From: Methanosarcina flavescens
GTDB lineage: Archaea > Halobacteriota > Methanosarcinia > Methanosarcinales > Methanosarcinaceae
Reading direction: 5' to 3'
Length of the DNA stretch: 64,000 bases
Assembly: GCF_001304615.2 (NCBI RefSeq)
Contig: NZ_CP032683.1
Span: forward strand, 1,674,001-1,738,000
Below are positions 23,422 to 54,017 of this stretch, piece after piece (within the stretch, counting starts at the first letter, position 1; every line of letters begins with the position of its first letter). The notes below the pieces were generated by a model, which was not told the origin of the DNA, did not search any database, and saw only the letters and a program-made list of their open reading frames with translations. The position numbers and the translations under genes are program-made.

Positions 23422-25572
23422 ATGTTAATAAAAAGATTGGGGATTTTTCTCCTGGTGAGTTGCCTTATCTTTGCAAACGCACCGATTGCTTCATGCAGAA
23501 GCGCCCCACCAATTGTTTATGTTTCCGGAAATGGGAGTGGGGATTTCAACTGCGATGGAAAAGATGATCATGTGCAGATAAATCAGGCTCTGAAATTTGT
23601 GGCAAGTAATCCTAAATATACAACTGTCCATCTCAAAGGACCTTTTACGTACGTTATTAACGATACTCTTTTAATTGGCAGCAATACTATTCTCCAAGGG
23701 GATTCGACTGCTGTGATAAAGCTGGCAAATAATGCAGGCTGGAAATCAATGAAACCATTGATCAAGCAGATGAACAGTGCAGGAAATAGTAACATTGTAG
23801 TAAGAGGGTTTGAGGTTGATGTAAACCATGATGGAAATCTTAAGGTTGCTAAGGGTAAAGGGTACTATAATGTAATGTACTTCACCCACTGTAATAATAT
23901 AAAAGTATACAACATGTATATGCACGATGGACATGGAGATGGGGTGAGGATAAAATACGGTAAGAACATCCAGCTTTATAATAATAAGATCTCCAAACTT
24001 GGACATGATGGCTTTTTTGTAAGTGAATGTGAGAATGTAGAGATTTGGAACAATAAAATAGTCTGCAGGACTAATAGTGGAGTTAGAGCTTGGAATTCCA
24101 ATAATGTAAAAATCCATGATAACGTAATTGATTCTTTATACTATCGGTGCACAGGTGGGCCTGGCATTCAGATTGAAAAGGGCGGAGCGGGTTCCGGTAC
24201 CATGGATAAGATCGAGATCTATGGGAATACATTGCATGATACATATGGGCCTGGAATCTGGCTTTTCAATTATGACACCTCTGCTGCCACTAAAGAAAAG
24301 GGGAAAAACGTCCATATTCATCACAATATATTTTATAATACAGGCACTAATACTGGAATTACCTGGACAGGCGGCATTGTGGCTAGCGGATTCCACGACA
24401 CTCTAATCGAAAATAACGTCTTTGATGGCGCATACCATGCTGCTATTGTTCACATGTATCCAGAAGCTTATTCTCCAAGTTATTCAACAAAGCCTGGGTA
24501 TACTACTATTGTCCGCAATAATATAATTGTAAATACCCGGCCGCGTATAAAGAGCCCGAGTGGAACAGGATACGCTGTGGCTAATTATCTCACCAAAAAT
24601 CACAAATTCGTGCTGGAGAATAACTGTCTTTACGGTAACTCAGGGGGCAATTATAAAAACTGCGCATCGAAATCTGATATCTATGTAAACCCTCTTTTTG
24701 TGAACCAGAAAAAACATGATTATCACCTCCAGTCAACGGCAGGCCGCTGGAATGGAAAAACCTGGGTTAAGGATAAAGTGACTTCTCCATGTATTGATGC
24801 CGGACATGTTTCTTCGGACTACTCTAAAGAACCTGAGAACAATGGAAACAGGATCAATATAGGAAGATATGGAAACACAATTTATGCATCTCTCTCACCG
24901 GCTTCACGAGTAAAGACAGTACAATCTCCATTTATGGAATTAACTTCCGAAGATGCAAATGAGGTCGAAGAATATCCAAATTTTACAACAGAAACATTTG
25001 ACACAGATGGGAGTAATTTCACACACTCAGAAATAGGTCCTTTTGTTGATACTGGACAGAGTCCGATTATTGAATCTATTCCAGAAACTGTGGTTAAGAT
25101 TGGAGAAAATTTGAACTTTACAGTGAAAGCTTCTGGCATGAATGGAAACAATCTTACATTCTCATCACCAGACCTTCCTGAAGGTGCAGAATTTGATGAG
25201 ACCGGGTTCTTTAGCTGGACGCCTGAAGACGGACAGGAAGGAGTCCATATCATACCTTTTGAGGTGAGTGATGGTCTGTTTAGTGATTCTAAGGTTGCAG
25301 TAATAATTGTAGAGAAGGCAAATGAAGAAGAGATAATTGGAGAAACAAATGAAGGGGAGATAATTGGAGAAGCAAATGGAGAGAAAATAATTGGAGAAGT
25401 AATTGAAGATGAAATAATTGAAGAGGAAACAACTGAAGAGATAAGTGAAGAGGTAAATAAAGAAGTAAACAAAGAAGAAATTGAAGAGGAAGAAAATGAA
25501 GGAGCCATTCCTTTAAACCTCTCTGGCACAATATACGAAGCTATCTTTACGGAGTTCCTCCTAAAGGATTAA
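23422..25572 (+). CDS. secreted beta-helix protein with Ig-like domain and acidic repeats
   Basis: 716 residues. A signal peptide (LGIFLLVSCLIFANAPIASC) is followed by GSGDFNCDGKDD, a start shared by all four paralogs, and then a right-handed parallel beta-helix of the disaggregatase-related type (about residues 45-490, with repeated N-x-I/V-x-NN steps). A putative Ig-like domain of the He_PIG type spans about 545-630 (DLPEGAEFDE, FSWTP). The tail has nonapeptide repeats such as EEIIGETNE and GEIIGEANG, then becomes Glu-rich. ATG 23422 has GGGTGAT upstream; TTG 23404 is less likely. It lacks the C-terminal repeat found in the paralogs at 28160 and 49849. I infer a surface polysaccharide-binding or -cleaving protein. 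Confidence 0.85.
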   Translation: MLIKRLGIFLLVSCLIFANAPIASCRSAPPIVYVSGNGSGDFNCDGKDDHVQINQALKFVASNPKYTTVHLKGPFTYVINDTLLIGSNTILQGDSTAVIKLANNAGWKSMKPLIKQMNSAGNSNIVVRGFEVDVNHDGNLKVAKGKGYYNVMYFTHCNNIKVYNMYMHDGHGDGVRIKYGKNIQLYNNKISKLGHDGFFVSECENVEIWNNKIVCRTNSGVRAWNSNNVKIHDNVIDSLYYRCTGGPGIQIEKGGAGSGTMDKIEIYGNTLHDTYGPGIWLFNYDTSAATKEKGKNVHIHHNIFYNTGTNTGITWTGGIVASGFHDTLIENNVFDGAYHAAIVHMYPEAYSPSYSTKPGYTTIVRNNIIVNTRPRIKSPSGTGYAVANYLTKNHKFVLENNCLYGNSGGNYKNCASKSDIYVNPLFVNQKKHDYHLQSTAGRWNGKTWVKDKVTSPCIDAGHVSSDYSKEPENNGNRINIGRYGNTIYASLSPASRVKTVQSPFMELTSEDANEVEEYPNFTTETFDTDGSNFTHSEIGPFVDTGQSPIIESIPETVVKIGENLNFTVKASGMNGNNLTFSSPDLPEGAEFDETGFFSWTPEDGQEGVHIIPFEVSDGLFSDSKVAVIIVEKANEEEIIGETNEGEIIGEANGEKIIGEVIEDEIIEEETTEEISEEVNKEVNKEEIEEEENEGAIPLNLSGTIYEAIFTEFLLKD

Positions 25573-26453: not shown

Positions 26454-28136
26454 TTGAAAAATCTTGCCCAATTTATTAGAAACAGGCTACTAAATTTAAG
26501 CAAATTTTTGCTAAATAGTAGAAAAATTTGTAGAGATATTACCACGTCACTATACAAATATATGTATAATAGAAATAATAATGCCCTTAATCATAACCAG
26601 GCACGGTTAATTTCTTCAATAAACAAAGGACTTGGAATTTTTTTCCTGGTAGGTTGCCTTATTCTTGCAAGCGTTCCTACTGTTTTATGCAGGACTACAG
26701 CGCCTATTGTCTACGTTGCCGGAGATGGGAGTGGAGATTTCAATTGTGATGGAAAGGATGATCATATACAGATCAACCAGGCGCTAAAGTTTGTGGCAGA
26801 CAACTCGAAATATACCACTGTCTATCTCAAAGGACCTTTCACATATGTTATTGACGACACCCTTCTAATTGGAAGCAATACCATTCTTGAAGGGGATTCA
26901 ACTGCTGTGATAAAACTGGTTGATAATGCTGGCTGGGCAACAATGAAGCCATTGATCAAGCAGATGAGCAGTTATGGAAATAATAATATCGTAATACGAG
27001 GGTTTGAGGTTGATGTAAACCATGATGGGAATCTTAAGGTTGCTAAGGGTAAAGGATATTACAATGTGATTTACTTCCTTTATTGCAAAAACGTAACTGT
27101 ATGCGATATGCATATGCACGACGGGCATGGAGACGGGTTGAGGATAAAATACAGTGAAAATATTCAGTTTTACAATAACACTATCTACAGACTTGGACAC
27201 GACGGCATGTTTGCAATTGAATGCCAGAATGTAGAAGCCTGGAATAACACAATAACCTGCAGAACTAACAGCGCCCTTAGAGTCTGGAACTCAAACCATG
27301 TAAAGCTACATGACAATCTAATTGACTCTTTCTATCATTGGAGTGCAGGCGGGCCTGGAATCCAGGTCGAGAAATCCGCAGGCATTATGGATGATATTGA
27401 GATTTACAACAATACAATCCATCACACATACGGGCCCGGAATCTGGCTTTTCAGCTACGATACCTCTTCGGCTACCCGTGATCAGGGTAAAAATGTTCAT
27501 ATCCACCATAATATTTTCTATAACACTGGCACTAATCCTAGCATTACCTGGGTAGGGGGCATTATAACCAATGGATTCGAAGATACTGTCATTGAAAACA
27601 ACGTTTTTGACAGCATATATCACTCAGCAATCGCCCATATGGATATGACTGGTGGCTCCTCAACCTATGCACCAGCAGGTGACGGATATACAACAATTGT
27701 CCGCAATAATATTATTGTAAATACCCTGCCACGTACAAAAGAACCGAGCGGAACAGGGTACGGAGTTATTAATTATCTGCCCGGAACACATACTTTTGTG
27801 TTGGAGAATAACTGCCTTTACAATAATAAAGCAGGCAACTATAAAAACTGCGCATCGACAACTGATATATATGCTGATCCTCTTTTTGCAGACCTGGAAA
27901 ACCATGATTATCACCTGAAGTCAAAAGCAGGTCGCTGGAACGGAGAAAGATGGGTTAAAGACAAAGTGACTTCTCCATGCATTGATGCCGGTTATTCCCT
28001 CTCTGATTACGCTAACGAGCCTGAAGATAACGGAGATAGGATCAATATTGGAAGATACGGAAACACAATCTATGCATCTCTCTCAGGGACTTATCCTGTC
28101 GATAATATGAGGATCCTGTATCTCAGGAATCTGTAA
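26454..28136 (+). CDS. disaggregatase-related beta-helix protein, N-terminal part of a frameshifted gene
   Basis: 560 codons: a long basic N-terminus, a signal or anchor segment (LGIFFLVGCLILASVPTVLC, about residues 62-81), GSGDFNCDGKDD, then the parallel beta-helix to about residue 540. It ends in an unrelated tail, VDNMRILYLRNL, because the frame is lost near 28,105-28,120. In the +1 frame the sequence continues at once as YEDPVSQESVILTVSDNRLRE into the domain at 28160, exactly as in the intact paralog at 49849. Several internal tracts are almost base-identical to the paralog at 52413. The start is uncertain: TTG 26454 lies in the conserved leader, and later ATGs are possible. Confidence 0.78.
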   Translation: MKNLAQFIRNRLLNLSKFLLNSRKICRDITTSLYKYMYNRNNNALNHNQARLISSINKGLGIFFLVGCLILASVPTVLCRTTAPIVYVAGDGSGDFNCDGKDDHIQINQALKFVADNSKYTTVYLKGPFTYVIDDTLLIGSNTILEGDSTAVIKLVDNAGWATMKPLIKQMSSYGNNNIVIRGFEVDVNHDGNLKVAKGKGYYNVIYFLYCKNVTVCDMHMHDGHGDGLRIKYSENIQFYNNTIYRLGHDGMFAIECQNVEAWNNTITCRTNSALRVWNSNHVKLHDNLIDSFYHWSAGGPGIQVEKSAGIMDDIEIYNNTIHHTYGPGIWLFSYDTSSATRDQGKNVHIHHNIFYNTGTNPSITWVGGIITNGFEDTVIENNVFDSIYHSAIAHMDMTGGSSTYAPAGDGYTTIVRNNIIVNTLPRTKEPSGTGYGVINYLPGTHTFVLENNCLYNNKAGNYKNCASTTDIYADPLFADLENHDYHLKSKAGRWNGERWVKDKVTSPCIDAGYSLSDYANEPEDNGDRINIGRYGNTIYASLSGTYPVDNMRILYLRNL

Positions 28137-28159
28137 TTCTAACAGTATCTGACAACCGT

Positions 28160-28702
28160 TTGCGTGAAAATTCTCCAGAAACTGTTTTCCATGATACATC
28201 CTTTATTGATGTCGGAGGATCGAGTATTGGCAGATACAGAGATTTAATATCGTTTAATCTTAGCGAGTATACTGGTGCAGACATTAATAGTGCAACCCTC
28301 TCTCTTTTCTGGTATTATCCTGCAGGAATCGCAAGACCTGAAGACACAGTAATTGAAGTCTACAGACCTGCTTCTTCCTGGAATGAAAGTTATGTTAGCT
28401 GGAACAAACTGGAAAAAGGAATTGCATGGAGTAATGCAGGAGGAGACTGGTACGATAAAAATGGAGTTTTGCAGGGCAGTACCCCCTATGCAACGATAAC
28501 TTTTAAAGGCAATACCCTGCCTGATAACAGGTACTACGAACTGGATGTGACAGATCTCGTGAAAGAGTATGTCAGCGGCAAATATGCAAACACGGGTTTC
28601 CTGATAAAAGCCCGTAATGAAAGCAATAACTATATTGCTTTCTACAGCAGTGACTGCGGAAATGAAAACCAGGTACCAAGATTGAATCTGGTATGCAGCT
28701 AA
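28160..28702 (+). CDS. C-terminal disaggregatase-related repeat domain, out of frame
   Basis: 180 codons from TTG 28160, but the coding homology begins upstream at about 28,104 and is in a different frame from the gene at 26454. The domain (SFIDVGGSSIGRYRDLISF, GGDWYDKNGVLQGSTPYA, YYELDVTDLVKEYVSGKY, NTGFLIKARNES) matches the C-terminal domain of the paralog at 49849 almost residue for residue, and I assign it to the disaggregatase-related repeat family. Without a ribosome binding site of its own it is probably the broken-off end of the gene at 26454, unless frameshifting joins the two. Confidence 0.75.
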   Translation: MRENSPETVFHDTSFIDVGGSSIGRYRDLISFNLSEYTGADINSATLSLFWYYPAGIARPEDTVIEVYRPASSWNESYVSWNKLEKGIAWSNAGGDWYDKNGVLQGSTPYATITFKGNTLPDNRYYELDVTDLVKEYVSGKYANTGFLIKARNESNNYIAFYSSDCGNENQVPRLNLVCS

Positions 28703-29566: not shown

Positions 29567-31036
29567 ATGGTGTCATATCAAAAATTTGCAAAAGACGTTG
29601 GCTTTATCGGAATAGTCCAAATACTTACAAGCCTGGGCACTTTCTTCCTGCTTCCTATAATCACGAAAACCCTTGGAACGTATGATTACGGACTCTGGGC
29701 TCAGATCAATATCACCGTATCACTTATCTCTCCTCTTGCACTTATGGGTCTATCTATGGGTTTTGTCAGATTTCTATCCTCTGAAACTGAAACCAAAAAG
29801 ATAAGGGAGGCAGTATACTCGATTCTCTTTTTTGTAACTGTATCTGGACTACTGGCCTCATTTTTACTTTATATCTTCGCTGAACCTCTTGCAACTTTTG
29901 GATTTAATGATCCCAACGCGGCTTATTTTATTCAGGCAGGCTCATTTTTGATTCTCGTGAACGTAATTGAGTCTATAACTCTTTTTTATTTCAGAGTTTT
30001 CAGGCAGATCCAGAAGTTTTCTTACTTAACCCTTTTCGAAACGTTTGGAAAATTACTTTTTATTCTCATTCTCCTCAAATTGGGATACGGACTTCTTGGT
30101 GTAATAGCAGCGACCTTACTTGTACAGGGGTCCATTTTTTTAATTTCTTTTTCGATTATCATATCACAGATAGGCTTCGTCATTCCCCGGTTTACTTACA
30201 TAAAAGAGTATCTGCAATTTTCCCTACCATTAACTCCCACTGCACTTATAAGATGGATTACAGAATCAAGTGACAGATATCTGGTTACTTACTTTCTCGG
30301 GCTTAGAAGTGTGGGCGTATATTCGGCAGCCTGTTCTATCGGCAACCTGATACAGCTTTTTGTAAGCCCTCTTCAGCTCATTCTCCTTCCCGAGCTATCA
30401 AAGCTGTTTGACGAAAATAAAATGGATGAAATAAGAATTTATATGTCTCATTCTCTGAGGTACTTCCTTCTTATTTCTATTCCTGCAGTTTTCGGACTCT
30501 CAGCCCTTGCAAAACCATTGATTGGAATCCTTACCACTGAGGATTTTCTTTCGGGCTGGTTTGTAATTCCTATTATTGCCTTCTCCGGCCTTATGGCAGG
30601 AATCTTTCAGATATTTGTCAATACGATGTATCTTATAAAACGAACAAAAACCGCAACTTACATCAATATTGTTGCGGCGATTTCGAATGTATTGATCAAC
30701 ATTCTGCTGATACCATCTATCGGAATTGCCGGAGCTTCACTGTCAACTTTATTTTCTTACTTTTTAATGGCTGCGCTCTGTATGCATTTATCCTTAAAAC
30801 ACTTTAAACTTGATTTTTATTTTAATGATATTGCGAAAAGCATTCTGTCCTCAGTAGCTATGTACCTCTTTGTATCTCATTTCGCTATCACAAGCATCTT
30901 TGAGCTTTTCGAGATTACAGGCATGGGTGTACTCATCTATTTGGTTGCTATGTTTCTGGTAGGTGGATTCAGTGACTACGAACTTTCTTTAATACGAAGG
31001 TATTTATTCAGAGTTGAAAGCGAAGTCAAGCACTAA
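29567..31036 (+). CDS. Wzx-like polysaccharide flippase
   Basis: 489-residue, roughly 14-helix protein of the MOP exporter superfamily. The N-terminus (FAKDVGFIGIVQILTSLGTFF, then PIITKTLGTYDYGLWAQ) is typical of oligosaccharide flippases. It should translocate lipid-linked glycan. AAGGTGAT abuts ATG 29567, so GTG 29570 has better spacing and could be the true start. It stands alone upstream of the epimerase/GalU/UGD genes and is not closely related to the two other flippases of the window, which suggests a separate substrate or a separate acquisition. Confidence 0.9.
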   Translation: MVSYQKFAKDVGFIGIVQILTSLGTFFLLPIITKTLGTYDYGLWAQINITVSLISPLALMGLSMGFVRFLSSETETKKIREAVYSILFFVTVSGLLASFLLYIFAEPLATFGFNDPNAAYFIQAGSFLILVNVIESITLFYFRVFRQIQKFSYLTLFETFGKLLFILILLKLGYGLLGVIAATLLVQGSIFLISFSIIISQIGFVIPRFTYIKEYLQFSLPLTPTALIRWITESSDRYLVTYFLGLRSVGVYSAACSIGNLIQLFVSPLQLILLPELSKLFDENKMDEIRIYMSHSLRYFLLISIPAVFGLSALAKPLIGILTTEDFLSGWFVIPIIAFSGLMAGIFQIFVNTMYLIKRTKTATYINIVAAISNVLINILLIPSIGIAGASLSTLFSYFLMAALCMHLSLKHFKLDFYFNDIAKSILSSVAMYLFVSHFAITSIFELFEITGMGVLIYLVAMFLVGGFSDYELSLIRRYLFRVESEVKH

Positions 31037-31354
31037 TTAACCTTTATTCTCAAAGCTTTCAGGATTTTTCCCTGCTCTAGACATACTTACTCTACACTCA
31101 AATTTTTAAAAATTTATATCCTCTGTACCCGCAGATCACAATATTAGTCTCACTGGAATCTGTAAGTCTGCTAATATATAACCTAGACTATCTGTAAATA
31201 TATACCCTGGACTATCTGTGTCAATAAGGGTTTGATATATTGTTCTCTTAGTTAGGGAAAGCCTCAAAAGGGTATGCTGGCATAAAAGTGTAGGTACTTT
31301 AACTATTATATTGGTCAGCAAAATGATAATTTTGGAAAAACGTTATCAGGGAAA
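31037..31354. other. short convergent intergenic region
   Basis: Between the flippase and the epimerase gene ends. ACCTAGACTATCTGT and CCCTGGACTATCTGT near 31,181-31,219 form an imperfect direct repeat. No gene is seen. Confidence 0.35.
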
Positions 31355-32311
31355 TTATACTAATCTCTCCCCAAGTAATGCTCTTGCCGTCTCCCTCACA
31401 CTTCTCTCCGATGAATAGACTGGCTTCCATCCCAAAGCTTTCATTTTCTCAATCCCTAGCCTCATCCTTGGCACATCGCCTTTCCAGCCTCTGCTTCCTC
31501 CAGTATAAATAAATTTAACATCAGAAAGCCCCATCTCTTCTATGACAGCTTTTCCTATCTCTGTTGCACTGATGGTATCCTCGGAACCAATATTGAAAAT
31601 ATTTACTTTATCTCTGCTTTTCTCTATTAAAAATATTATTGCATCAACACATTCCGATACGTGAAGGTAGGATTTTTCCTGTTTGCCATTGCCCAGAATT
31701 TCAAGTACATTGGAGTCTTTCTCCAGTTTCTTTATGAAATCTACCGTGATTCCATGTGTACTGCGTGGACCAACAATATTCGCAAAACGAAATATCCATG
31801 CCCGCATATCGAAAGTGTGGGAATATGAAGTAATAAGGGCTTCACAGGCCAATTTGGAGGCACCATAAAGGGATATAGGAATAAGAGGACCGTAATCTTC
31901 CGGAGTTGGCATAACACTCGCCTCCCCGTACACAGTTGAGGTAGAAGTAAATGCAATTTCTTTAACGCTGTTTTTCCTCATAGCTTCCAGAAGATTGTAG
32001 GTAGCCAGAATATTCTGATCCAGATGAACTCTAGTATCCGTGGCTCCTAACCTGACATCAGGATTTGCAGCCACATGGCAAACAATGTCAATATTTCTAC
32101 AGGCGGCCTCTATAGCTTCCTGGTCAAGAAGATCTCCTTTTATCAGAGTAAAATCCGGATTTTCGAGATGATGTTCTATAAACTGTAATTTCCCTGAACT
32201 GAGGTTATCAAAAACAGTAATCTTACTTCCTTTTTCAATTAAGCGGTCTACAAGGTGGCTCCCTATAAAACCGGCTCCTCCTGTCACAAGTATTTTATTC
32301 TTTGTAGGCAT
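31355..32311 (-). CDS. GalE-like NAD-dependent epimerase/dehydratase
   Basis: 318-residue extended short-chain dehydrogenase. The NAD motif GGAGFIGSHLVDRL is at residues 10-24, the catalytic Ser-Tyr-Lys appears as TSTSTVYGEAS and then SLYGASK (about residues 122 and 148), and the C-terminal part is sugar-binding. Closest by pattern to archaeal UDP-glucose/UDP-GlcNAc 4-epimerases. It would give UDP-Gal or UDP-GalNAc. GGAGAA lies six bases before ATG 32311. It is divergent from galU with about 200 bases between. Whether it prefers the N-acetylated sugar cannot be seen from sequence. Confidence 0.88.
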   Translation of the reverse strand: MPTKNKILVTGGAGFIGSHLVDRLIEKGSKITVFDNLSSGKLQFIEHHLENPDFTLIKGDLLDQEAIEAACRNIDIVCHVAANPDVRLGATDTRVHLDQNILATYNLLEAMRKNSVKEIAFTSTSTVYGEASVMPTPEDYGPLIPISLYGASKLACEALITSYSHTFDMRAWIFRFANIVGPRSTHGITVDFIKKLEKDSNVLEILGNGKQEKSYLHVSECVDAIIFLIEKSRDKVNIFNIGSEDTISATEIGKAVIEEMGLSDVKFIYTGGSRGWKGDVPRMRLGIEKMKALGWKPVYSSERSVRETARALLGERLV

Positions 32312-32507
32312 GAAAAGTTCTCCAGATAATCTTTCATTCCATATATTTTATAATGTGTTAAAATAATCATGATTTGTTCTTACCCCATTCTCTACATGAG
32401 TCTAGGGAGATAATGATGGAAAAATTAAAGATGTTATGGTTGAAAAAGTACTTTAATCCAACTGTAAGAATAACCTTTTCACAAGATATTCTATCGGAGG
32501 GTTTATA

Positions 32508-33395
32508 CTGACTGTTAAAAAAGCGCTTATTCCGGCTGCCGGACTTGGAACCCGCTTCCTGCCTGCCACCAAGTCAATGCCAAAAGAGATGCTTCCTATT
32601 ATTGACACACCTGTAATCCAGTATGTTGTAGAGGAAGCCATTGCATCGGGAATTGAAGATATTATCATTATTACAGGCAGAGGTAAAAGGGCAATTGAGG
32701 ACTATTTCGATGATTCCCCTGAACTCGAGATGCACCTTGCGAAAAAGCACAATACTGAACTTCTAAAGCTTGTAAGGGATGTTTCCTCTCTTGTGGATAT
32801 TCACTATATCCGACAGAAAGAACCCAATGGACTTGGAGATGCAGTCCTCAGAGCAGAAAACCATATTGGAAATGAGCCTTTCGCCGTGCTTCTAGGGGAT
32901 GATATTATTGTGAATGACAAACCCTGCACGGCTCAACTCATTGATAATTTTCAGAAATATGGAAGGTCCACACTCGCAGTGGAAGAAGTTCCTTATGAAA
33001 AGTTGAGCAGCTATGGAATTATAAAAGGAAAGCCTCTCAACGATTCTCTTTATGTACTGGAGGATATTGTCGAAAAACCATCACCTGAGAACGCTCCTTC
33101 CAATATAGGTGCCATAGGGCGCTACGTTTTCACCCCTGAAATCTTTGATTGCATAAAAGAAGCTGGAACCGGTGTGGGAGACGAAATTCAGTTGACTGAT
33201 GGAATCCGACTCCTCAATAACACCCAGACAATCTACGCTTGCAGGTTCGAAGGAAAAAGATTTGACACCGGTGACAGGCTCGGGTATGTAAAGTCGATAA
33301 TTGACTTTGCTCTTAAAAACGAAAGTCTTAGAGAGGATGTACTTGAGTATCTGAGAGATATTCTGGTAACGGTGGATGACCCCTCTGACAAATAA
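32508..33395 (+). CDS. galU: UTP-glucose-1-phosphate uridylyltransferase, apparent CTG start
   Basis: Makes UDP-glucose from UTP and glucose-1-phosphate. 295 residues if started at CTG 32508. The obligatory nucleotide-binding motif, IPAAGLGTRFLPATKSMPKE, begins at residue 8 and lies almost wholly before the first in-frame ATG (32577). From the upstream stop at 32454 to that ATG there is no ATG, GTG or TTG in frame. GGAGGG at 32496-32501 is six bases before CTG, an ideal distance, so I infer initiation at CTG. Later motifs are normal: LGDDIIVND, VEKPSPENAPSN, GRYVF, RFDTGDRLGY. It supplies the UDP-glucose dehydrogenase encoded next, on the opposite strand. Confidence 0.9.
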   Translation: MTVKKALIPAAGLGTRFLPATKSMPKEMLPIIDTPVIQYVVEEAIASGIEDIIIITGRGKRAIEDYFDDSPELEMHLAKKHNTELLKLVRDVSSLVDIHYIRQKEPNGLGDAVLRAENHIGNEPFAVLLGDDIIVNDKPCTAQLIDNFQKYGRSTLAVEEVPYEKLSSYGIIKGKPLNDSLYVLEDIVEKPSPENAPSNIGAIGRYVFTPEIFDCIKEAGTGVGDEIQLTDGIRLLNNTQTIYACRFEGKRFDTGDRLGYVKSIIDFALKNESLREDVLEYLRDILVTVDDPSDK

Positions 33396-33480
33396 GGTCC
33401 ACATAAATAAGGCAGCTAGAGACCAGAGAAGTTGAACTAATAAGTTTGAATAAAAAAGAGGACACGGTTTCTGCAGGATT

Positions 33481-34764: not shown

Positions 34765-34961
34765 AAATTGAACCTCTTTATTGAGTGGAGGGGTAATAAA
34801 TTCCAAATAGTATTTATTTTTTGATAAACACTCTTCTATGTCTCTTCTGAGATGACCAATTTTTCTTATTCATACAATTACTTATCTCATCAGTATTCAT
34901 AGATTCATATAGTTTAATGCTTATATCCTGTATAGTTAGGGTTTAATATATGTTATGACAA

Positions 34962-35270
34962 TTGCTTTACAGAGATTATGGGGGATTTATAACGCTTTCA
35001 ATATTTGATGTGGGTACAGAATTTGCTGCGAGAAACTCTCATCCGGATTTAGGCATTTGCTTCCTCTCGACAGATTTTGGAATCCCTGAATACTATCAGA
35101 TAACTGTCGTGGGTCTAATTGCTCTTCTGGGTATGAAGGAGATGCTACTGGTCTCCAGAGAAGAAGACCGATTTTCTTTAGATTCAGTGGATATGGGAAT
35201 TTATCCTTTAATTATATGTTTTATCGCTAGTTTTCTTTTTGCAAGCCTGGAAATAATTTTTACAAGGTAA
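34962..35270 (+). CDS. small two-helix membrane protein, start uncertain
   Basis: Up to 102 codons. Two hydrophobic segments (ITVVGLIALLGM and IYPLIICFIASFLFASLEIIF) frame a charged loop. It shares GIPE, then a hydrophobic run, then MGIYPL with the startless gene at 12272 (GIPD, MGIIPL), so both belong to one small family. TTG 34962 has no ribosome binding site. GGGGGA at 34980-34985 does, but is followed by ATA (34989) and ACG CTT (34992); the relative also has ACG CTT after its site. Function unknown. Confidence 0.5.
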   Translation: MLYRDYGGFITLSIFDVGTEFAARNSHPDLGICFLSTDFGIPEYYQITVVGLIALLGMKEMLLVSREEDRFSLDSVDMGIYPLIICFIASFLFASLEIIFTR

Positions 35271-35791
35271 ACATCCTTGAATTTATAAATTTCTTTATTT
35301 TAAGTATTTCATTCTTACCTTTGTAATTCATTTTCCTGTCTAAATGTTAGAGGGTGAATAATGCTTATTTTTTATTTTTGAAAACCGAAAAATCGTAATC
35401 ATATTTTCTAAAATTTTTAATTATGTTAGTTCAGTAACTTAGTTTCCATACTTATTTATTCTTAAGTCATTTATCTTCTAGTCGTAATATTGTTTGTTAG
35501 TGACTATATCTGAGCAAAAATTTGAGTTTCGTAAGGACACTATTAGGGGGAGGGGGGCGTTTGAGCCAGGGGAACGTTTGATCTAAGGGGACGTTTGAGC
35601 CAATGATCCAGAAAAGTAATTCTATGTTCGGGTAGAGTAAGGTATGGGAAGTCTATCTGACAGAAAGGTTCGAAATAAAAGCTGGATAAAAAACAAGATT
35701 CAACTGTTATTTTCTCTAAATAAGACATAAATAGACTGTCTATCTGTCTTAGTATTGTAATTATAGGAAATGTTAATTGGGGAGTGAAAAG
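35271..35791. other. intergenic region upstream of the DUF354 gene
   Basis: About 520 AT-rich bases with a G-rich tandem repeat at 35552-35602 (listed separately). The last 20 bases hold GGGGAGTGA, the ribosome binding site for TTG 35792. No coding remnant seen. Confidence 0.4.
35552..35602. repeat. three tandem 17-base G-rich units
   Basis: Units start at 35552, 35569 and 35586: GGGGGGCGTTTGAGCCA, GGGGAACGTTTGATCTA and AGGGGACGTTTGAGCCA. The fixed core is CGTTTGA. The array stands out as GC-rich in AT-rich DNA about 190 bases upstream of the DUF354 gene, and could be a protein-binding cluster. Confidence 0.85.
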
Positions 35792-42804: not shown

Positions 42805-42897
42805 GCTATTTTCAACTCTAAAAATATAGGCTCCAGATACATGGGTTCTTCTTTCATTTCCCAATTAGTAAATGGAGTTTATCCTGGGCTTTTGATT

Positions 42898-44829: not shown

Positions 44830-44964
44830 ATAACCCCACAGATCAATAACTTTTATAATCAAACCATACCAAGTTAAAATATTTTTTGCCTGTAAATCCA
44901 GATGGCTTTCTCACAGTTTAATTCTCTTTTTCAATCCCATGTTATTTTCCTTAGTATCATATAT

Positions 44965-45993
44965 TCAGTAATTCTCCTTCCACCATCTGTATATCTCGGC
45001 TCCTGATGTCATCCAGGCATTTTTTTGAGTACAATACTCCAGGATTCTTTTATAGAATTCCAGATAATCTCCTTGCATATACGTATTATGCCAGAGGATT
45101 GTAAGTACGCCTTTATAGCTTTCAACTGTATCAATGAGCTTTTCCGTAAGTTTCCATGCCTGATTGAAGTCAAGATGCATCTGGCTGAAAAGAGTGGTAT
45201 CCATAATACCCAGTGGAATTTCGAGAATATCGATTTTTTTTCCTGTGTTAAGATTATATGGATTAAAAGGATGACACATTCCGTTCCTGAAACCCGCACA
45301 ATCATGATAGCCGAAGGTTGAATCGTAACTGAAGCCCGCTTCTGCAAGGAATTCCCAGGTTTTTGGAGTCTTAAATCGAAGATAATGATTCCTGTAGCCT
45401 ATAACCTCCTTTCGGAGTACCTTCTCGAGTTTATGTTTTTTGTTTCTGATTTCTATTGGGTTATTATAAGCTTCATGACCTCCGTGAAGCCCCACCTCCC
45501 ATCCATCGTCCAAAATATAGCCAAGTTCTTCTTCCAGTTCTTCAATGCTGAAAGTAAAATCTTCGTCTCCTGGATCAAGGGTCAGGAAATAAAATGTAGA
45601 TTTTGCTCCATAGTTTTTTTCCAGTTTCATAATTTGTCTAAAATTCCACAAAGGATTCCAAGTTTTGTTTATTCTTGAGAACGGAAGGATAGAAGCCTGT
45701 ACAAACTGACCCCTTTTGAGAGCTTTTACTGCCCTGGCTGCAGTATTCAGCATTCCTGGACATACAAAGTCGATGTCATGAGTCAGGCATACTGCAAAAT
45801 TTCTTCCTTCAGGATATTCGGGACTTAGCCCATTCTTAATCAGAAATTTCGAGATATGAGGCTCAAAAATATTTCTTTGACTGCTTAAGTAATATGAAAA
45901 TCTTCCATACTTATCTAAAAGGATAGGGTCGTACTCTTCTTTTTTTGTAAATAGGTCCCATAGCTCCCCATCTTCCATTATTTTCTTAGACAA
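44965..45993 (-). CDS. polysaccharide deacetylase-like protein (THDID family)
   Basis: 342-residue relative of 6106, from which it differs little: ELWDLFTKKEEYDP, YYLSSQRNIFEP, FAVCLTHDIDFV, LHGGHEAYN, YRNHYLRFKTP, AGFRNGMCHPFNPYN, ILWHNTY. All metal-site residues are present. I start at TTG 45993, where AAGGGGAT is four to five bases upstream; the frame extends about 40 codons further (to 46119), but this addition is not shared by the relatives. It precedes the GT-C-like gene on the same strand. Confidence 0.82.
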   Translation of the reverse strand: MSKKIMEDGELWDLFTKKEEYDPILLDKYGRFSYYLSSQRNIFEPHISKFLIKNGLSPEYPEGRNFAVCLTHDIDFVCPGMLNTAARAVKALKRGQFVQASILPFSRINKTWNPLWNFRQIMKLEKNYGAKSTFYFLTLDPGDEDFTFSIEELEEELGYILDDGWEVGLHGGHEAYNNPIEIRNKKHKLEKVLRKEVIGYRNHYLRFKTPKTWEFLAEAGFSYDSTFGYHDCAGFRNGMCHPFNPYNLNTGKKIDILEIPLGIMDTTLFSQMHLDFNQAWKLTEKLIDTVESYKGVLTILWHNTYMQGDYLEFYKRILEYCTQKNAWMTSGAEIYRWWKENY

Positions 45994-46119
45994 AGTATCC
46001 CCTTTACTCTTATTGTTTGGACTTTCAACTTTATTAAATATTTGGTTAGCTCTGGTTCCTTTATTTTTATCTTTTAGGAACTTATCCCGATGAGCTTGTC
46101 GTATCAATCCTATCCCCAC

Positions 46120-47532
46120 TGGAACTCTAATGTACTATTCTCACAGACTATATTATATCATTAGACCACTGTCTGAGAAACATTAATCTCATTTATTCTG
46201 CTAAAGTTATCTTGTCACTCTAGAGTCCCGCTTATTCGTTATGCTTTTGATTGCAAAAACTGATTAGCTTCTCTGTTGGCTAACCCTACTCTCAATTCTC
46301 TTATTACCCTGGATCTTTTTCAGTACGGCTTCCATCTACATTCTGGCAATTTCCTGAATAAAAAATTTTGTTTTAACACAGGTGTTCAACTATCAGCAGA
46401 GAGAATCTGTATTTTTACTATTCTCTGCAGATTAGCCTTAACCATTCAATGATTGAAGCCATCAGGCGTATTTTCCTTTATGCTATGTATTAATGCCATA
46501 GATTAATATGTAAGAGAAGCACGTGTAAGAGAAGCAAGGTTATTGCGCCAGCCTCTGAATAATAAGGTTCCAGGTTAACCAGAGTTATTTCGCAGCTTTG
46601 TTCATAAGTCGAGACCCTGCAGTATCCGCCAATTTATAATGTTTCCCCATAAATGAATAAATATTATTAGGATATAAGTTTTAGCGTTGGAATAAAATTC
46701 TTTTCACAATATTTATTACTATTATAATATTTTATACTTCTCGACGATCATAAACACTGCTCAATACGCTGCGACTTTTATTTATATTTTTCAGAGCTGC
46801 AAGTTGTCTACTTCCAAGTTTTATAACTATCTCAGAAAAAAAACTCTAACGCGCACATTTTTTATTAGTTGAACTCTCCTACAGTATTATTCTTATCTGA
46901 GGATCTATCTTCAGTCAGGGCATGACTTGATCCTATGGCAGTTGCCACATGGAAAGTAGATCGATAAATTCAGACTGCCTGATATCGGGAATTTATATCC
47001 ACAGATGTGGTATAAATGCTTGAGAAACTGCAATTTAACCTTATCAATAAGGATTCTTATCTCGATATATGGTTTGTTCAAGCAGATTTTAGTGTATTCC
47101 ATTAGAGTTATTCTTCTGTTTCTTTCCCAAACTAATTATTTCTTTAAGACACTCCATTTTCATGACAATAAGAACTGAAAATTGCATACAAGGAACCTTT
47201 CTTTATTAAAAAATAGTTTATAAGTTAAGGTTAAGTAAGCTACATGGATAATTTAGGCCTCTCAATTATCCTGTTTTTAACCTCTAAAGAATCAGGTTTA
47301 ATTTTCTGTTTAGATGTATAGAAAATTCCCGATCATTTATCAAGCTATTTTATTTACAGAATCTTTTGTAAGGATATTTTTTCCATATTAATATTTTTAT
47401 TGGAATATCCATATCATGTGTTAACCTTAAATATATCTTGATCTAATAATTTTTAGTAGGATAGCCTTTAATATTTTTGCAATTATACACATAAAGGGGG
47501 TTATAGCACATGCATATGTATAGGGGGGTAGG
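46120..47532. other. 1.4 kb region without an intact gene
   Basis: It contains an imperfect hairpin at 46396-46428 (GCAGAGAGAAT with ATTCTCTGC), a direct repeat TGTAAGAGAAGCA near 46,508-46,536, and the coding relic at 46921-47178 listed separately. The rest is AT-rich. The end holds GGGGGG at 47523-47528, the ribosome binding site of the gene at 47533. Confidence 0.4.
46921..47178 (+). pseudogene. coding relic, unrecognised
   Basis: One frame reads GHDLILWQLPHGK, a TAG stop at 46957, then IDKFRLPDIGNLYPQMWYKC, a hydrophobic segment (IRILISIYGLFKQILVYSI) and a TGA at 47176-47178. The codon use and amino acid mix look like real protein, and the frame stays open before and after the stop. There is no start codon with a ribosome binding site. 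I take it as the 3' end of a lost gene but cannot name the family. Confidence 0.35.
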
Positions 47533-49134
47533 TTGGGTTTGTATTCAGCCTTTTCACTTGGTCTCAATTCTTTAATCTCTGATCCTATTAGCATAGTATC
47601 TTCGCCAACCCAACTTACCGATAGGTTGCTCAGGCATGAATTTACTGTCTTGATTCCAGCTCAGAACGAGGAAACTTCCATTGGAAGCAAGGTCTTGATT
47701 GCGGCAAGTTACGCTGACCGTGTACTTGTTCTTGATAAGGGTTCTACAGATCGAACTATGGAGGTAGCTGCTCTGGGAGGGGCACGAGTTGTTCCTATCT
47801 CAGGGGGGGAGGAAGCATTACTCAACGTCCTTTACAAGGCATCTCTTGATTCAGAACTTGTTGTTCTTATCTATCCGGAATGCATGCAGGATATAGATTT
47901 GCTTTCCCATGTACTTGAGCCGCTAAGACAGGGATTTGATCTATCAGTGGGTTCATGGCCCTGTCGTATCTCCTGTGAGTTGGAAACAATAATGCTTTTC
48001 AATGGGAAAAATACCTTTAAGGAAAAAATAGGGTTTCTTGCGATAACCGCAGATTCGCTGCAGAAAATCAGCTCAGGCAGGGAACATCTTTCTTTGAAAT
48101 CCTTGCTTTCTGCGGCGAAAGCTGGAGGACTTAAGGTTAACTACTTGAGTTTTGATGTAGACCCTATATTCAGGAAACTTGAGAACACTCGTATAGGAGT
48201 TGTTGTGCCTGCTTATAATGAGGAACTGCTTATAGGCGAAACTCTAAGTGGCATCCCCGAATATGTAGATAGAATTTATGTAGTTGACGATGCCAGTACA
48301 GACCGTACAGGCGAAATTGTAAAAAACTTTGGTGACTCACGGATTGTGTATTTGCGTCATGAAGTAAACAAAGGAGTAGGCGCGGGAATAATCAGCGGAT
48401 ATAAACTTGCACTCAAAGACGAGATGGATATCGTTGCGGTCATGGCTGGAGATAATCAAATGGACCCAGTCCAGCTTCCCAGGTTAATTTTCCCAATTAT
48501 TGAGGGAAGAGCTGATTATACAAAAGGGAATAGACTACTTACTGATGATTTCATGACCGGAATGAGCAAATGGAGGTCTTTTGGAAACCTTCTCCTCAGC
48601 TTTATCACAAAAATAGGCAGCGGTTACTGGCAAGTTATGGACCCTCAGAACGGATATACAGCTATCTCCAGGCAGGCCCTGGAGGTGATCGATCTAGATT
48701 CAGTCTATCCTTATTATGGTTATTGTAACGATCTGTTAATCAAGCTTAATGCTTTCGGAATGAGAGTAATGGATGTTGTAATGCCCGCTCGTTATGGCAA
48801 AGAAAAATCCAAGATTCGGTATGGCAAGTTTATCCGCAAAGTGGCTCCCATGATCTTCAGAGGTTTTCTCTGGAGGTTAAGGGTAAAATACACTGTGCTG
48901 GACTTCCATCCACTTGTATTATTCTATTTCCTTGGAATGCTAGCCTTGCCTGTGGGTGTTCTGTTAGGATTGTGGGGCTTTTTGCAGATATTACTGCAAA
49001 ATCCTCTCCCTTCCTACTACCCACTGCTTGGCTTCCTTGTCCTGGGTACGGGGCTTCAAATGCTTCTCTTCGGAATGCTTTTCGATATGCAGGTTGAAAA
49101 GAAAAGAAATGAAAAGATAGGGTTTGCTCGCTAA
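47533..49134 (+). CDS. tandem double-domain GT2, N-terminal domain inactive
   Basis: 533 residues. Domain 1 (about 30-210) keeps the GT2 outline, VLIPAQNEETS then VLDKGSTDRT, but lacks the DD of VDDGS, and its expected DxD position reads IYPECMQD. Domain 2 (about 215-440) has VVVPAYNEELL, VVDDASTDRTGEI, MAGDNQMDP in place of DSDGQHDP, and DPQNGYTA. Two or three membrane helices follow (LVLFYFLGMLALPVGVLLG and onwards). TTG 47533 lies five bases after GGGGGG. I infer that only domain 2 catalyses, and that domain 1 arose by duplication and is now structural or regulatory. It is a DPM1-like enzyme, sugar unknown. Confidence 0.82.
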   Translation: MGLYSAFSLGLNSLISDPISIVSSPTQLTDRLLRHEFTVLIPAQNEETSIGSKVLIAASYADRVLVLDKGSTDRTMEVAALGGARVVPISGGEEALLNVLYKASLDSELVVLIYPECMQDIDLLSHVLEPLRQGFDLSVGSWPCRISCELETIMLFNGKNTFKEKIGFLAITADSLQKISSGREHLSLKSLLSAAKAGGLKVNYLSFDVDPIFRKLENTRIGVVVPAYNEELLIGETLSGIPEYVDRIYVVDDASTDRTGEIVKNFGDSRIVYLRHEVNKGVGAGIISGYKLALKDEMDIVAVMAGDNQMDPVQLPRLIFPIIEGRADYTKGNRLLTDDFMTGMSKWRSFGNLLLSFITKIGSGYWQVMDPQNGYTAISRQALEVIDLDSVYPYYGYCNDLLIKLNAFGMRVMDVVMPARYGKEKSKIRYGKFIRKVAPMIFRGFLWRLRVKYTVLDFHPLVLFYFLGMLALPVGVLLGLWGFLQILLQNPLPSYYPLLGFLVLGTGLQMLLFGMLFDMQVEKKRNEKIGFAR

Positions 49135-49848: not shown

Positions 49849-51936
49849 TCAGGTATACTCTATAGTGAGTTTGGGTCTCTGGTTTTTGTTTTGCCAGTTG
49901 GTACTGTAGAAAGCAATATAGTTTTCATCTTCCTCTCGGGCTTTAATAAGGAAACCTGTATTTTTGTACTTACCGCTTATATATTCCTGAACAAGGTCTG
50001 TTACGTCCAGTTCAATGTAGCGGTTGCCAGGGGTTTCATCTCCACTGATAGTTATTGCAGCGTATGGGGTGCTGCCCTGGAAGACTCCATTCCTGTCATA
50101 CCAGTCTCCTCCTGAATTTTTCCAGGGAATGTTGGTTTCTCTTTGCTGCCACGTAACATGTTCTTTGCACCATTCCACAGGTCTATATATTTCCAGTACA
50201 GTATCCTTTGGTCTCATTTGATTCTCCGGGTAGCACCGGAATAAAGACAGTGTTGCTCCTTCGATCTGGTCAGTTTGATTGAATGAACTCAACTCAAAGA
50301 TTATAACGCCCCTGTAAATGCCCCCATCAGGTTTCTTTCCTATGTCAATATATTCACTTTCACTGAAAGTCATGTTAGGAGCCTCTTGCCTTAACCTGTT
50401 GTCAGAAATGACAAATGGTAATGCAATTTTAAGATTTTCCGCTTCATCGGACTGCAGTGAAAGGTTTAAAAAAAATCTTTTAAGAAATCTTAGAAATTCT
50501 GAAAAGGCTCTTTTAAGGCTAGATTCAAACTCTTCTTCCTGTCCTGTCTGGACTCCACTTTCATCTATCTCATAAGGCGTCTGCGGTCCGGCAGACATAG
50601 CTTCACTCCAGGGGAAATCCTCTCCTAAGGACTCATTTTTGCTCAACTTCGCCGCAAGTTCAGAGTCAGCCTCGATATCTGAGGTAGAATTTGCACCAAG
50701 ATAATTCCCACCTGCATTATTGGAAAGGCAATTATTTTCTAGGATAAATGAATGGGTATCTCTCAGCTGATTGTATACAGCATATCCTTCTCCGGCTGCA
50801 GGACTTGGCTGTGTATTAATTATTATATTATTTCTCACGATAGTTGTATATCCTGAGCCCGGAGCCAAAAATTCTTTAGTAACCTGTTTATGGGCAATAG
50901 CAGCGCCGTAGCATCCTTCGAATTTATTGTTCTCTATCAAAGTGTTTTGAAAACCGTTAAGCACTATTCCTCCTGCCCAGTCTGCACCACGGTTAATTCC
51001 GGTTTTATAAAATTTATTGTGATGGATATAGATATCTCTTGCAGAGTCTTTAGAATATCCGTTTCCGTAACCTGTAATCCAGATACCTGCCGCATTTGTC
51101 TCGTATAGCAGGTTATTGCAGATCTCAATATCATTCATCACAGTTGATGGACCGATCTTCTGGATTTCAATCCCTGCCCCTCCTTCTCCTTCGGAGTCGA
51201 TAATATTGTTATGGAACTTTACGTGATTTGTATTGTAAATTCTTAAGCCACTGTTTGTTCTACATGTTATTTTATTGTTCCAGGCTTCTACATTTGAGGA
51301 ATAGATGGCATAGAGAGCATCATGCCCTAACTTATAAACCCGATTATTGTAAAACTGAATATCTGAACATTTTACGACCTTAAGCCCATCCCCATGACTG
51401 TCATGCATGTACATGTCGTGAACCTTTATATTCTCACAATTAAGGAAATTAATCAGATTATGATATCCTTTGCCCCTGCTTTTCCCATCGTTGTTATCAT
51501 GATTTCCATCAATCTCAAACCCTCTTATGGTAATGTCATGATTTCCGGCACTGTCCATTTGCGTAATCAAAGGCTTTCCTTCCGGCCAACCTACATTATC
51601 CTCAAGCTTAATCACAGCTGTAGGATCTCCCTCAAGAATGGTATTACTCCCTATATAGATACTGTCCGAAATAACGTAAGTATTAGGTCCTTCCAAATGA
51701 ACGGTTGTAAACTCTGGATTTTCCGCAACATATGCAAGAGCTTTGTTTATCTCTACCTGGTCGTCACTTCCATCACAATTAAAGTCCCCACTTCCATTGG
51801 TAGAAACACGAACTACTGTATCAGATGGGGTGGATAAAGTGATGGTCACACCTGCAATTAGAGAAATAAAAATTATACTAAAAAGTAGTAATTTTTTTCT
51901 ATCTCCCCACTTATACATTCGCCTTTTTCCGTTCAT
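49849..51936 (-). CDS. disaggregatase-related protein, beta-helix plus C-terminal repeat
   Basis: 695 residues, the complete form of this family here. A signal peptide (LLLFSIIFISLIAGVTITLS), GSGDFNCDGSDD, a parallel beta-helix (about 45-410), a linker with ESSLKRAFSEFLRF, and the C-terminal disaggregatase-related repeat (about 505-695: DNRLRQEAPN, GGDWYDRNGVFQGSTPYA, ELDVTDLVQEYISGKYKNTG). Disaggregatases split methanochondroitin and disperse cell clumps; this protein may cut or bind that matrix. GGGGAT is five bases before ATG 51936, which is chosen over the longer frame. It is on the same strand as the paralog at 52413. Confidence 0.87.
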   Translation of the reverse strand: MNGKRRMYKWGDRKKLLLFSIIFISLIAGVTITLSTPSDTVVRVSTNGSGDFNCDGSDDQVEINKALAYVAENPEFTTVHLEGPNTYVISDSIYIGSNTILEGDPTAVIKLEDNVGWPEGKPLITQMDSAGNHDITIRGFEIDGNHDNNDGKSRGKGYHNLINFLNCENIKVHDMYMHDSHGDGLKVVKCSDIQFYNNRVYKLGHDALYAIYSSNVEAWNNKITCRTNSGLRIYNTNHVKFHNNIIDSEGEGGAGIEIQKIGPSTVMNDIEICNNLLYETNAAGIWITGYGNGYSKDSARDIYIHHNKFYKTGINRGADWAGGIVLNGFQNTLIENNKFEGCYGAAIAHKQVTKEFLAPGSGYTTIVRNNIIINTQPSPAAGEGYAVYNQLRDTHSFILENNCLSNNAGGNYLGANSTSDIEADSELAAKLSKNESLGEDFPWSEAMSAGPQTPYEIDESGVQTGQEEEFESSLKRAFSEFLRFLKRFFLNLSLQSDEAENLKIALPFVISDNRLRQEAPNMTFSESEYIDIGKKPDGGIYRGVIIFELSSFNQTDQIEGATLSLFRCYPENQMRPKDTVLEIYRPVEWCKEHVTWQQRETNIPWKNSGGDWYDRNGVFQGSTPYAAITISGDETPGNRYIELDVTDLVQEYISGKYKNTGFLIKAREEDENYIAFYSTNWQNKNQRPKLTIEYT

Positions 51937-52412
51937 ATTAAATCCCCAATACATTAAACTATAACTCTTTAAGATTAAAAAAGGTTACCTGTTAAGTTTG
52001 CAAATGAGATAGACTCGAAAATACATTCATTCTTTTCGCTGCTCGAGTCTCGAGAATTGCAACAGATCCCCAAGGACACTACTGCATGTATAAACAACTT
52101 TATTAACTTCTTCAGGTTCCTGACTGCCAGAAATTAGTTCCCTTATATAGGGCATTAACCCTCCACTTTAATTCATTAAGTATGGTTATTTTTATCAAAT
52201 ATTGAATCCCCAGATTGAATTATAAATGAACATCTATAAGTATTTTAGTAAGCAACATGAACAGACGACATTATAGCCACTGCTACGCAGATTGCCAAAG
52301 AGAGCCACTAATTCTAATGATTGCTAATAAATTAAAGTTAAATCACTTACTTTGACTCTTTCCTATTCCAGTAAGTGATTTTGTTAAAAGGCAGGTTTAA
52401 GGCGTTTTAATA
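51937..52412. other. intergenic region between two beta-helix genes
   Basis: About 475 bases. It holds the promoter side of the gene at 49849 and a hairpin at 52340-52381. No remnant of a C-terminal repeat domain is seen after the shorter gene at 52413. Confidence 0.4.
52340..52381 (-). terminator. 12-base inverted repeat after the beta-helix gene
   Basis: AAATCACTTACT (52340-52351) and AGTAAGTGATTT (52370-52381) are exact reverse complements around an 18-base loop. It lies about 30 bases past the minus-strand stop, and T-rich sequence follows on that strand, so it could terminate transcription or protect the mRNA end. Confidence 0.5.
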
Positions 52413-54017
52413 TTATATTGAAAAAGAATAAAAAATAGTTCTCAACAGGAACCTTAAATTCTTCCATTGTGGTGAAAATATCTGGTTCCACCATACAACA
52501 TATCCAGGAATATCGCCTGAAATAGAAGCATATTCGGTATTTCCGTACCTGCCTATGTTGATCCTCCCTCCATTATTCCTGGGCTCCTTTGAATAGTCAG
52601 AACCTAGATAACCGGCATCAATGCAGGGAGAACTTACAATATCTTTTACCCAGGTTTTTCCGTTCCATCTTCCGCCTGTTGATTTCAAGTGGTAATCGTG
52701 ATCTTTCTGATTTGCAAAGAGAGGATCAGCATATATATCAGTTGTTGATGTGCAGTTTTTATAGTTGCCTGCTTTATTATTGTAAAGGCAGTTATTCTCC
52801 AGCACAAAAGTATGTGTTCCGGGCAGATAATTAATAACTCCGTACCCTGTTCCGCTCGGTTCTTTTGTACGTGGCAGGGTATTTACAATAATATTATTGC
52901 GGACAATTGTTGTATATCCTGTGTCCTGGGGTGAAAGATCGATAGAATAACCTGTAGGATACATATGGGTAACTGCAGCATGATATGCGCCATCAAACAC
53001 ATTATTTTCAATGCGAGTGTCATAAAAACCACTCGCTACTATACCACCTACCCAATCTATACTTGGGTTTGTACCTGTGCTGTAAAATATATTGTGATGA
53101 ATGTACACATCCTGTGCTTCTTCCCTGGGATAAGAATTGCCATAGCCTAACAGCCAGATCCCGGGCCCGTATGTGTGATGGATTGTATTATTGCACACCT
53201 CTATATCATTCATCACGCCTGTTGTTTTCTGAATCTGGATTCCAGGCCCGCCTGCACTCCAGTGATAGAAGGAGTCAATTAGATTATCATGGAGCTTTAC
53301 ATGGTTTGAGTTCCAGACTCTAAGGGCGCTGTTAGTTCTGCAGGTTATTGTGTTATTCCAGGCTTCTACATTCTGGCATTCAATGGCATAAAGCCCATCA
53401 TGCCCCAGTTTATAAACCCGGTTATCGTAAAACTGGATATTCGAACTTCTTTCTATCTTCAGTCCATCTCCATGCCCGTTATGCATATACATGGAGTGAA
53501 CCTGAATGTTGCTGGAATTCAAGAAATGGATCAGATTGTAATATCCTTCTCCTCTCTTTTTGTCTAGATTTTTGTTATGGTTTCCGTTGATTTCAAATCC
53601 TTTTATGGTGATGTTGTAGCTTCCTGCTCTGTCCATCTGTGTAATCAGGGGCTTATTCCTTGGCCAGTCAGCCTCATCTTTAAGTTTAATTATGGCTGTA
53701 GGGTCTCCTTCCAGAATGGTATCATTTCCAATTAAAATACTGTCTGAGATGATATATGTATTAGGACCCTTCAGATGAACGGTTGTGAACTGAGGGTTTT
53801 CTGCAACATATGCAAGAGCTTTATTTATTTCTACCTGATCATCACTTCCATCACAATTGAAATCTCCTCTCCCATCGGTAGCAATATAAACAGTTTTATT
53901 GGGTGATGTAGTGGAAAGGGCGGTTATTCCCATTGCAACCAAAAAAATTAAAATTGCAAAATAGATCCCGGTTTTTTTCCTGTTTTGCCATCTATGTCTC
54001 AGATCTTTTCCGTTCAT
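52413..54017 (-). CDS. disaggregatase-related beta-helix protein, short form
   Basis: 534 residues: signal peptide (TGIYFAILIFLVAMGITALS), GRGDFNCDGSDD, parallel beta-helix to about 490, then a short aromatic tail (VVWWNQIFSPQWKNL) in place of a C-terminal domain. The N-terminal 200 residues resemble the paralog at 49849, while later tracts (for example CQNVEAWNNTITCRTNSALR, and from YTTIVRNNIIVNT to the end of NYLPGT) are nearly identical in DNA to the one at 26454. The gene is therefore a mosaic. AGGGAT precedes ATG 54017. Without the C-terminal repeat it may have another substrate or anchoring. Confidence 0.86.
   Translation of the reverse strand: MNGKDLRHRWQNRKKTGIYFAILIFLVAMGITALSTTSPNKTVYIATDGRGDFNCDGSDDQVEINKALAYVAENPQFTTVHLKGPNTYIISDSILIGNDTILEGDPTAIIKLKDEADWPRNKPLITQMDRAGSYNITIKGFEINGNHNKNLDKKRGEGYYNLIHFLNSSNIQVHSMYMHNGHGDGLKIERSSNIQFYDNRVYKLGHDGLYAIECQNVEAWNNTITCRTNSALRVWNSNHVKLHDNLIDSFYHWSAGGPGIQIQKTTGVMNDIEVCNNTIHHTYGPGIWLLGYGNSYPREEAQDVYIHHNIFYSTGTNPSIDWVGGIVASGFYDTRIENNVFDGAYHAAVTHMYPTGYSIDLSPQDTGYTTIVRNNIIVNTLPRTKEPSGTGYGVINYLPGTHTFVLENNCLYNNKAGNYKNCTSTTDIYADPLFANQKDHDYHLKSTGGRWNGKTWVKDIVSSPCIDAGYLGSDYSKEPRNNGGRINIGRYGNTEYASISGDIPGYVVWWNQIFSPQWKNLRFLLRTIFYSFSI

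Follow-up and report, generated by a model that had tools for sequence, protein, structure and literature searches.

Paralogs B and D of a disaggregatase-related gene family in Methanosarcina flavescens have, in our reading, undergone repeated patching by ectopic gene conversion without crossover, for which locally conserved DNA is the probable seed; the same holds for D and C and for D and E in other species. We put the probability of this reading at about 0.87, and our confidence in conversion itself, taken apart from its seeding, is higher still. The genes lie in the window, a 64,000-nt stretch (G000:C1:1674001-1738000) of a 3.28-Mb genome; positions are window coordinates unless stated otherwise, and genomes are denoted by G-numbers, G000 being that of the window. 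Gene calls agree with the first-pass annotation of this DNA, which placed four paralogs at 23422, 26454, 49849 and 52413 with the last two inverted: A and B are on the plus strand, C and D on the minus strand (Table 1). All are long open reading frames with their own 5' ends, B alone being frameshifted and only at its 3' end, and all four match PF08480 (Disaggr_assoc) far above the cutoff. PF06848 (Disaggr_repeat) is present in C, out of frame in B and not found in A or D. A fifth, distant paralog, E, is located at genome position 210912, with transposase-like open reading frames on both flanks (L003 562-1026 and 3333-4289).

Near-identical tracts in paralogs B and D

The background identity of B and D is ~65–70%, with 90-nt windows outside the tracts mostly at 57–80%. 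Set within these diverged flanks are two tracts, T1 and T2, containing exact runs of 92 nt (T1) and of 117 and 50 nt (T2), much as the first-pass annotation had described. In the codon alignment, the 117-nt run pairs D 52919-52803 with B 27684-27800, and the 50-nt run, one mismatch away, pairs D 52801-52752 with B 27802-27851. For every other pair among A–E in this genome, the longest exact run is ≤31 nt. The identity extends to silent sites, measured only over codons at which B and D specify the same amino acid. At these codons, T1 is 0.89 identical and T2 0.97, versus 0.52 at the N-terminus, a profile at odds with uniform silent-site divergence, and the longest unbroken run of matches is 39 codons long (p = 5e-5, the lowest value attainable with the 20,000 permutations of the run test). 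Of the checks proposed in the first-pass annotation, silent-site and recombination tests on the base-by-base alignment show the B–D exchange, as does comparison with orthologs. A 32-nt degenerate pattern built from T1 gave 0 matches in a pattern search of the genome contigs.

The silent run test indicates no A–D conversion (p = 0.92) and no recent D–C exchange (p = 0.95) in the window genome; exchange between B-type copies and C was tested and none was found. The N-terminus of D is nearer to C than to B, as the annotation had claimed, and it is so across the whole genus, but sequence comparison assigns this likeness in the window genome to ancestry rather than to a mosaic formed by recent exchange. 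Between-genome protein comparison indicates that D is an old mosaic in all species, with an N-terminal half nearer to C and a T1 region nearer to B.

Comparisons within and between genomes

Paralogs were gathered from 31 genomes of the genus, with one genome per species, so that the comparison is one across species. Syntenic D orthologs are present in 19 of the genomes used, and B-type copies were taken from the same genomes. T1 spans alignment codons 230–282, T2 402–470 and a third tract, T3, 478–530. In T1, D–B silent-codon identity within a genome is 0.84–0.94 (six genomes) versus 0.40–0.52 in the N-terminal part; the nearest D ortholog reaches only 0.71–0.85 in T1, and D–B matches across genomes have means of 0.56–0.67. 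D–B identity is higher within than between genomes in T1, T2 and T3 (p ~0.0005); this excess is missing from most windows of the N-terminal and middle parts, a few weak exceptions lying near codons 40–70 and 300–320. Of the 36 own-genome pairs, 5 have a silent run longer than 20 codons, against none of the 648 between-genome pairs (Fisher p = 3e-7), and runs fall at the same patches in G029, G018, G013, G014, G015 and G030. In 5–6 species, the B that best matches D in T1, out of all genomes examined, is that of the same genome, and T1 is homogenized within the genome in at least five lineages (G000/G029, G018, G015, G013 and G014). Paralogs within a genome are more alike in the converted region than orthologs across genomes, the signature of gene conversion. 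The likeness is confined to patches; homogenization of the whole gene, usual in reported concerted evolution and not required by the mechanism, is not seen.

Comparison of the window genome with its sister G029 provides a relative date. The ratio of paralog-alike to ortholog-alike sites is 9:0 in T1 and T2 together and 1:186 over all other comparable sequence (p = 1e-14), indicating that part of the exchange is younger than the G000/G029 split. Trees of the sequence outside the tracts unite the D genes of ten clade-I species in a single clade (support 100/100). In the T1 tree, D and B instead pair by genome (99/95 in G018 and 89/85 in G013, with G000 and G029 together), and forcing D monophyly costs 78 log-likelihood units (approximately unbiased (AU) test, p = 0.016). 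The B copies of G018 and G013 are nested in the D clade in T3, each beside its own D, which suggests that D was the donor there. B-type and D-type states are mixed in both T2 copies of the window genome, suggesting that direction has varied. Tract ends also vary among species, and T3 is found only in G018 and G013. The recent exchange across ~25 kb proposed in the first-pass annotation is thus borne out for B and D, but not as one event: it appears to be recurrent, to run in both directions and to strike the same places in several species.

D acts as the hub of these exchanges according to the sequence comparisons, with B as its partner here and C and E as additional partners in other species. 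D–C exchange at codons ~60–120 is clear in G005, G030 and G023 and weaker in G003, G013 and G002. D–E exchange is seen in one species, G012, where D groups with the E copy of its own genome and the two have a common run of 61 silent codons (L053 2875-4473 and L112). This pattern suggests large-scale exchange between D and E.

A second gene pair in the same locus carries the same signature. X and Y are polysaccharide-deacetylase-like genes, named by sequence motif and with a weak DUF7033 match for X only, that are inverted, 7.5 kb apart and ~48% identical in protein sequence; they are unrelated to the disaggregatase-related genes. A repeat search flagged 37560-37667 and 45187-45294, which lie inside X and Y. 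In seven genomes compared over an 83-nt tract, identity within the genome is 0.92–0.95 in five species versus 0.80 across genomes. The true pairing of X and Y copies is the best of all 5040 permutations (exact p = 0.0002), and this holds at third positions as well. The presence of this signature in X and Y indicates that the phenomenon is not peculiar to the disaggregatase-related genes.

Had B and D recombined by crossover, the 25 kb that separates them would have been inverted. Anchor genes placed outside and inside the interval are colinear in G000, G029, G013, G005, G012, G004, G007, G006, G008 and others, and in no genome among those examined is the B–D interval alone reversed with respect to the two anchors outside it. 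Rearrangements are present in G002, G003, G030 and G009, none of which inverts just this interval. Conversion without crossover is the best reading, since the interval between the copies is not inverted on its own. An invertible DNA element was also considered as a candidate and rejected, because both orientations of the interval were sought among relatives and not found. The four rearranged genomes contain inversions or translocations with breakpoints near the paralogs; D is flipped relative to C in G030, and B and D are 1.9 Mb apart in G009.

Mechanism and alternative explanations

In the mechanism that we propose, stretches of ~50–200 bp would be copied between paralogs by homologous recombination. 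Patches would recur where protein conservation keeps continuous DNA identity long enough for strand invasion, so that the conserved enzyme core would serve as a standing recombination seed, with each event resetting a patch to near identity and enabling the next. In enzymes predicted to be secreted and to cleave polysaccharides, the likely effect would be a homogenized beta-helix core rather than new surface variants. We lean only slightly toward the seed step. Recombination in Escherichia coli needs a minimal identity of 23–90 bp (PMC3758752), a length that conserved motifs could supply. T1 is the most conserved protein stretch (mean column conservation 0.85 versus 0.77), and T1 windows rank top for B–D DNA identity in the non-exchanging subclade. 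Over overlapping windows, the excess of exchange is correlated with the baseline longest identity measured in that subclade (rho 0.49, p = 2e-4).

Several observations weigh against this reading. The support for the seed is correlative and weak, with plain identity giving p = 0.07–0.09 on non-overlapping windows; T2 is not especially conserved, and other conserved windows (codons 50, 150 and 350) are without exchange. B–D exchange is absent from seven more distant species that keep the genes (G007, G009, G023, G010, G020, G006 and G008), and conservation alone is therefore insufficient. The AU test of D monophyly is non-significant for T2 (0.32) and T3 (0.09), short tracts with little signal. 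Non-reciprocal transfer is inferred from tree positions rather than observed, and the same picture could arise if cells of one species recombined with each other.

The conservation of T1 also raises the prospect that purifying selection on the protein, or on RNA or codon usage, keeps the patches alike without exchange, and between-genome D–B identity in T1 is indeed already raised (0.77–0.84). Selection of this kind should not distinguish own-genome from foreign partners at silent codons, yet these match far more often within genomes than across them; moreover, D orthologs differ from one another at the same silent sites, and the seven distant species have the same conserved proteins without such identity. 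As the sole cause, purifying selection is refuted by the within-genome excess of silent identity, which also answers the objection that the first-pass annotation had raised against its own proposal; it stays a contributor that sets where exchange starts. Exchange-free maintenance of the patches is very improbable overall. A single exchange or partial duplication of ancient date, passed down to every species and slowly diverging since, would account for the T1 similarity common to all clade-I species and for the old mosaic structure of D. It predicts that the D and B patches form two gene lineages tracking the species tree, in conflict with the pairing by genome in T1, with parallel changes of both copies at seven T1 sites between two sister species and with the differing tract ends, and we regard it as extremely improbable. 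RNA constraint and assembly error, like selection alone or one old event, are excluded or very unlikely as causes.

Two further explanations accept exchange and differ in its purpose or source. Programmed variation, through cassettes like those of antigenic variation or through an invertible segment, would fit genes for secreted or surface proteins that exist as inverted copies, have short tracts in common and include several paralogs resembling donors, and the first-pass annotation had suggested that the exchange creates surface variants. The main hot patch is instead the most conserved segment, where exchange alters few residues of what are predicted to be secreted enzymes, and all copies are full-length open genes (apart from the 3' end of B) rather than one expressed locus with silent partial copies. 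Together with the absence of a separately inverted interval and the same signature in the unrelated X/Y pair, these features leave little room for diversification as the function, and we consider it very unlikely. DNA arriving from other cells or species could have replaced both copies, and with one genome per species, donors within the genome and from conspecific cells are indistinguishable. The preference of D for its own-genome B in T1 points the other way, and a donor from another species would not strike both copies alike every time; a slim chance is left for this source. Gene conversion between paralogs of one genome remains the reading that we prefer.

Known systems and the surrounding locus

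Recurrent, long-lasting concerted evolution has been described in prokaryotes, including mtmB, mtmC, mtbB and mtbC of Methanosarcinales (PMC6053082), and gene conversion has been described for mtrA in methanogens (PMC4632066). Those cases concern methanogenesis genes whose paralogs cluster by species in gene trees. The present one resembles them in that paralogs of one genome are closer to each other than to their syntenic orthologs, silent sites included, and in recurring among species of one archaeal order. It differs in being limited to patches of ~50–200 bp in extracellular-enzyme genes that are otherwise ~30–35% diverged and lie inverted 25 kb apart. We regard it as a new member of known concerted evolution, notable for its patchiness, its inverted partners and the second gene pair. 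Gene conversion is efficient in polyploid archaea, as in Haloferax volcanii, and the same work cites conversion in methanogens (PMC8223754). Non-reciprocal copying based on archaeal homologous recombination offers plausible machinery, although in H. volcanii it acts between chromosome copies with tracts often >4 kb, and here on diverged paralogs over short tracts. Short tracts and paralogs for cell-surface or secreted products are likewise features of antigenic variation by segmental conversion (PMC8223754); here a conserved core is homogenized without silent cassettes, in a pattern known from one genome per species.

The case cleanly documents recurrent, motif-scale ectopic conversion in archaea; the paralogs involved are diverged and inverted, and several species and two unrelated gene pairs serve as natural replicates. 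It is also a warning that trees built from families of this kind, such as the disaggregatase-related genes, mix histories. The system makes testable the minimal identity length for archaeal recombination and whether conserved motifs focus conversion. More tentatively, and with considerable doubt, short conserved motifs might seed non-crossover conversion across many unrelated paralog families in one Methanosarcina subclade. If so, protein conservation and recombination would reinforce each other, and old paralogs would be locked together one motif at a time as their remaining sequence diverges. The pattern is seen in two unrelated families at one locus and not in a sister subclade, which would then point to a lineage difference in recombination or mismatch-repair machinery.

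Table 1. Genes, domains and tracts of the window.
Feature	Position	Strand	Description
Paralog A	23422-25572	+	Disaggr_assoc/beta-helix protein with C-terminal He_PIG domain; no tract common with D in this genome
Paralog B	26454-28136	+	Disaggr_assoc/beta-helix protein; exchange partner of D; 3' end frameshifted (~28109) relative to ortholog
T1 in B	27216-27307	+	92 nt identical to D 53384-53293
T2 in B	27684-27851	+	Identical to D 52919-52752 as runs of 117 and 50 nt with one mismatch between
Disaggr_repeat (PF06848) domain of B	28160-28702	+	Now out of frame; domain search and ortholog comparison
Interval between inverted paralogs	29567-49134		Flippases, glycosyltransferases, UDP-glucose dehydrogenase, NDP-sugar epimerase; colinear in relatives
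NDP-sugar (nucleoside diphosphate sugar) epimerase	31355-32311
UDP-glucose (uridine diphosphate glucose) dehydrogenase	33481-34806
X	36828-37898	+	Polysaccharide-deacetylase-like (weak DUF7033); inverted paralog of Y; tract 37563-37645 common with Y
Y	44965-46119	-	Polysaccharide-deacetylase-like; tract 45209-45291 common with X
Paralog C	49849-51954	-	Disaggr_assoc and Disaggr_repeat; adjoins D; exchanges codons ~60–120 with D in other species
Paralog D	52413-54017	-	534-residue beta-helix protein without Disaggr_repeat; exchange hub
T2 in D (residues ~367–422)	52752-52919	-	Silent-codon, tree and site-pattern analyses
T1 in D (residues ~209–261)	53234-53393	-	Putative recurrent conversion hotspot; most conserved segment of the family

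D is predicted to fold as a beta-helix (mean predicted local distance difference test score 80). Its nearest folds are beta-helix enzymes that act on uronates, the AlgE alginate epimerases and the biofilm lyase RbmB, a generic likeness only, and B has no sequence match to PDB chains. The disaggregatase-related paralogs are probably secreted polysaccharide-cleaving enzymes, judging from these predictions. They resemble the methanochondroitin-cleaving disaggregatase of Methanosarcina mazei (PMC12369344) in their PF08480 and PF06848 domains and in lying beside a uronic-acid-type exopolysaccharide locus, a likeness of domains and predicted fold only, with D lacking Disaggr_repeat. The gene set between the inverted paralogs looks like that expected of a uronic-acid exopolysaccharide locus, and methanochondroitin is its likely, though unproven, product.

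The reading frame of B is lost at ~28109 relative to the G029 ortholog, an 898-residue open frame with two Disaggr_repeat domains in frame. B keeps one repeat where G029 has two, and its beta-helix part, including the tracts, is still open. The 3' frameshift and missing repeat (28100-28702) could reflect pseudogenization of the Disaggr_repeat domain or a sequencing error. In G029, a single A–B fusion gene replaces the tandem A and B (L037 5191-7884); it is ~98% identical to A over most of its first part and ~90–98% identical to B past alignment codon 190. The fusion is consistent with deletion between direct copies, suggesting that direct copies recombine too, there with loss of DNA. Elsewhere in the window, two tandem GT2 glycosyltransferase paralogs have a common 213-nt stretch at 73% identity (1931-2143 and 3026-3238).

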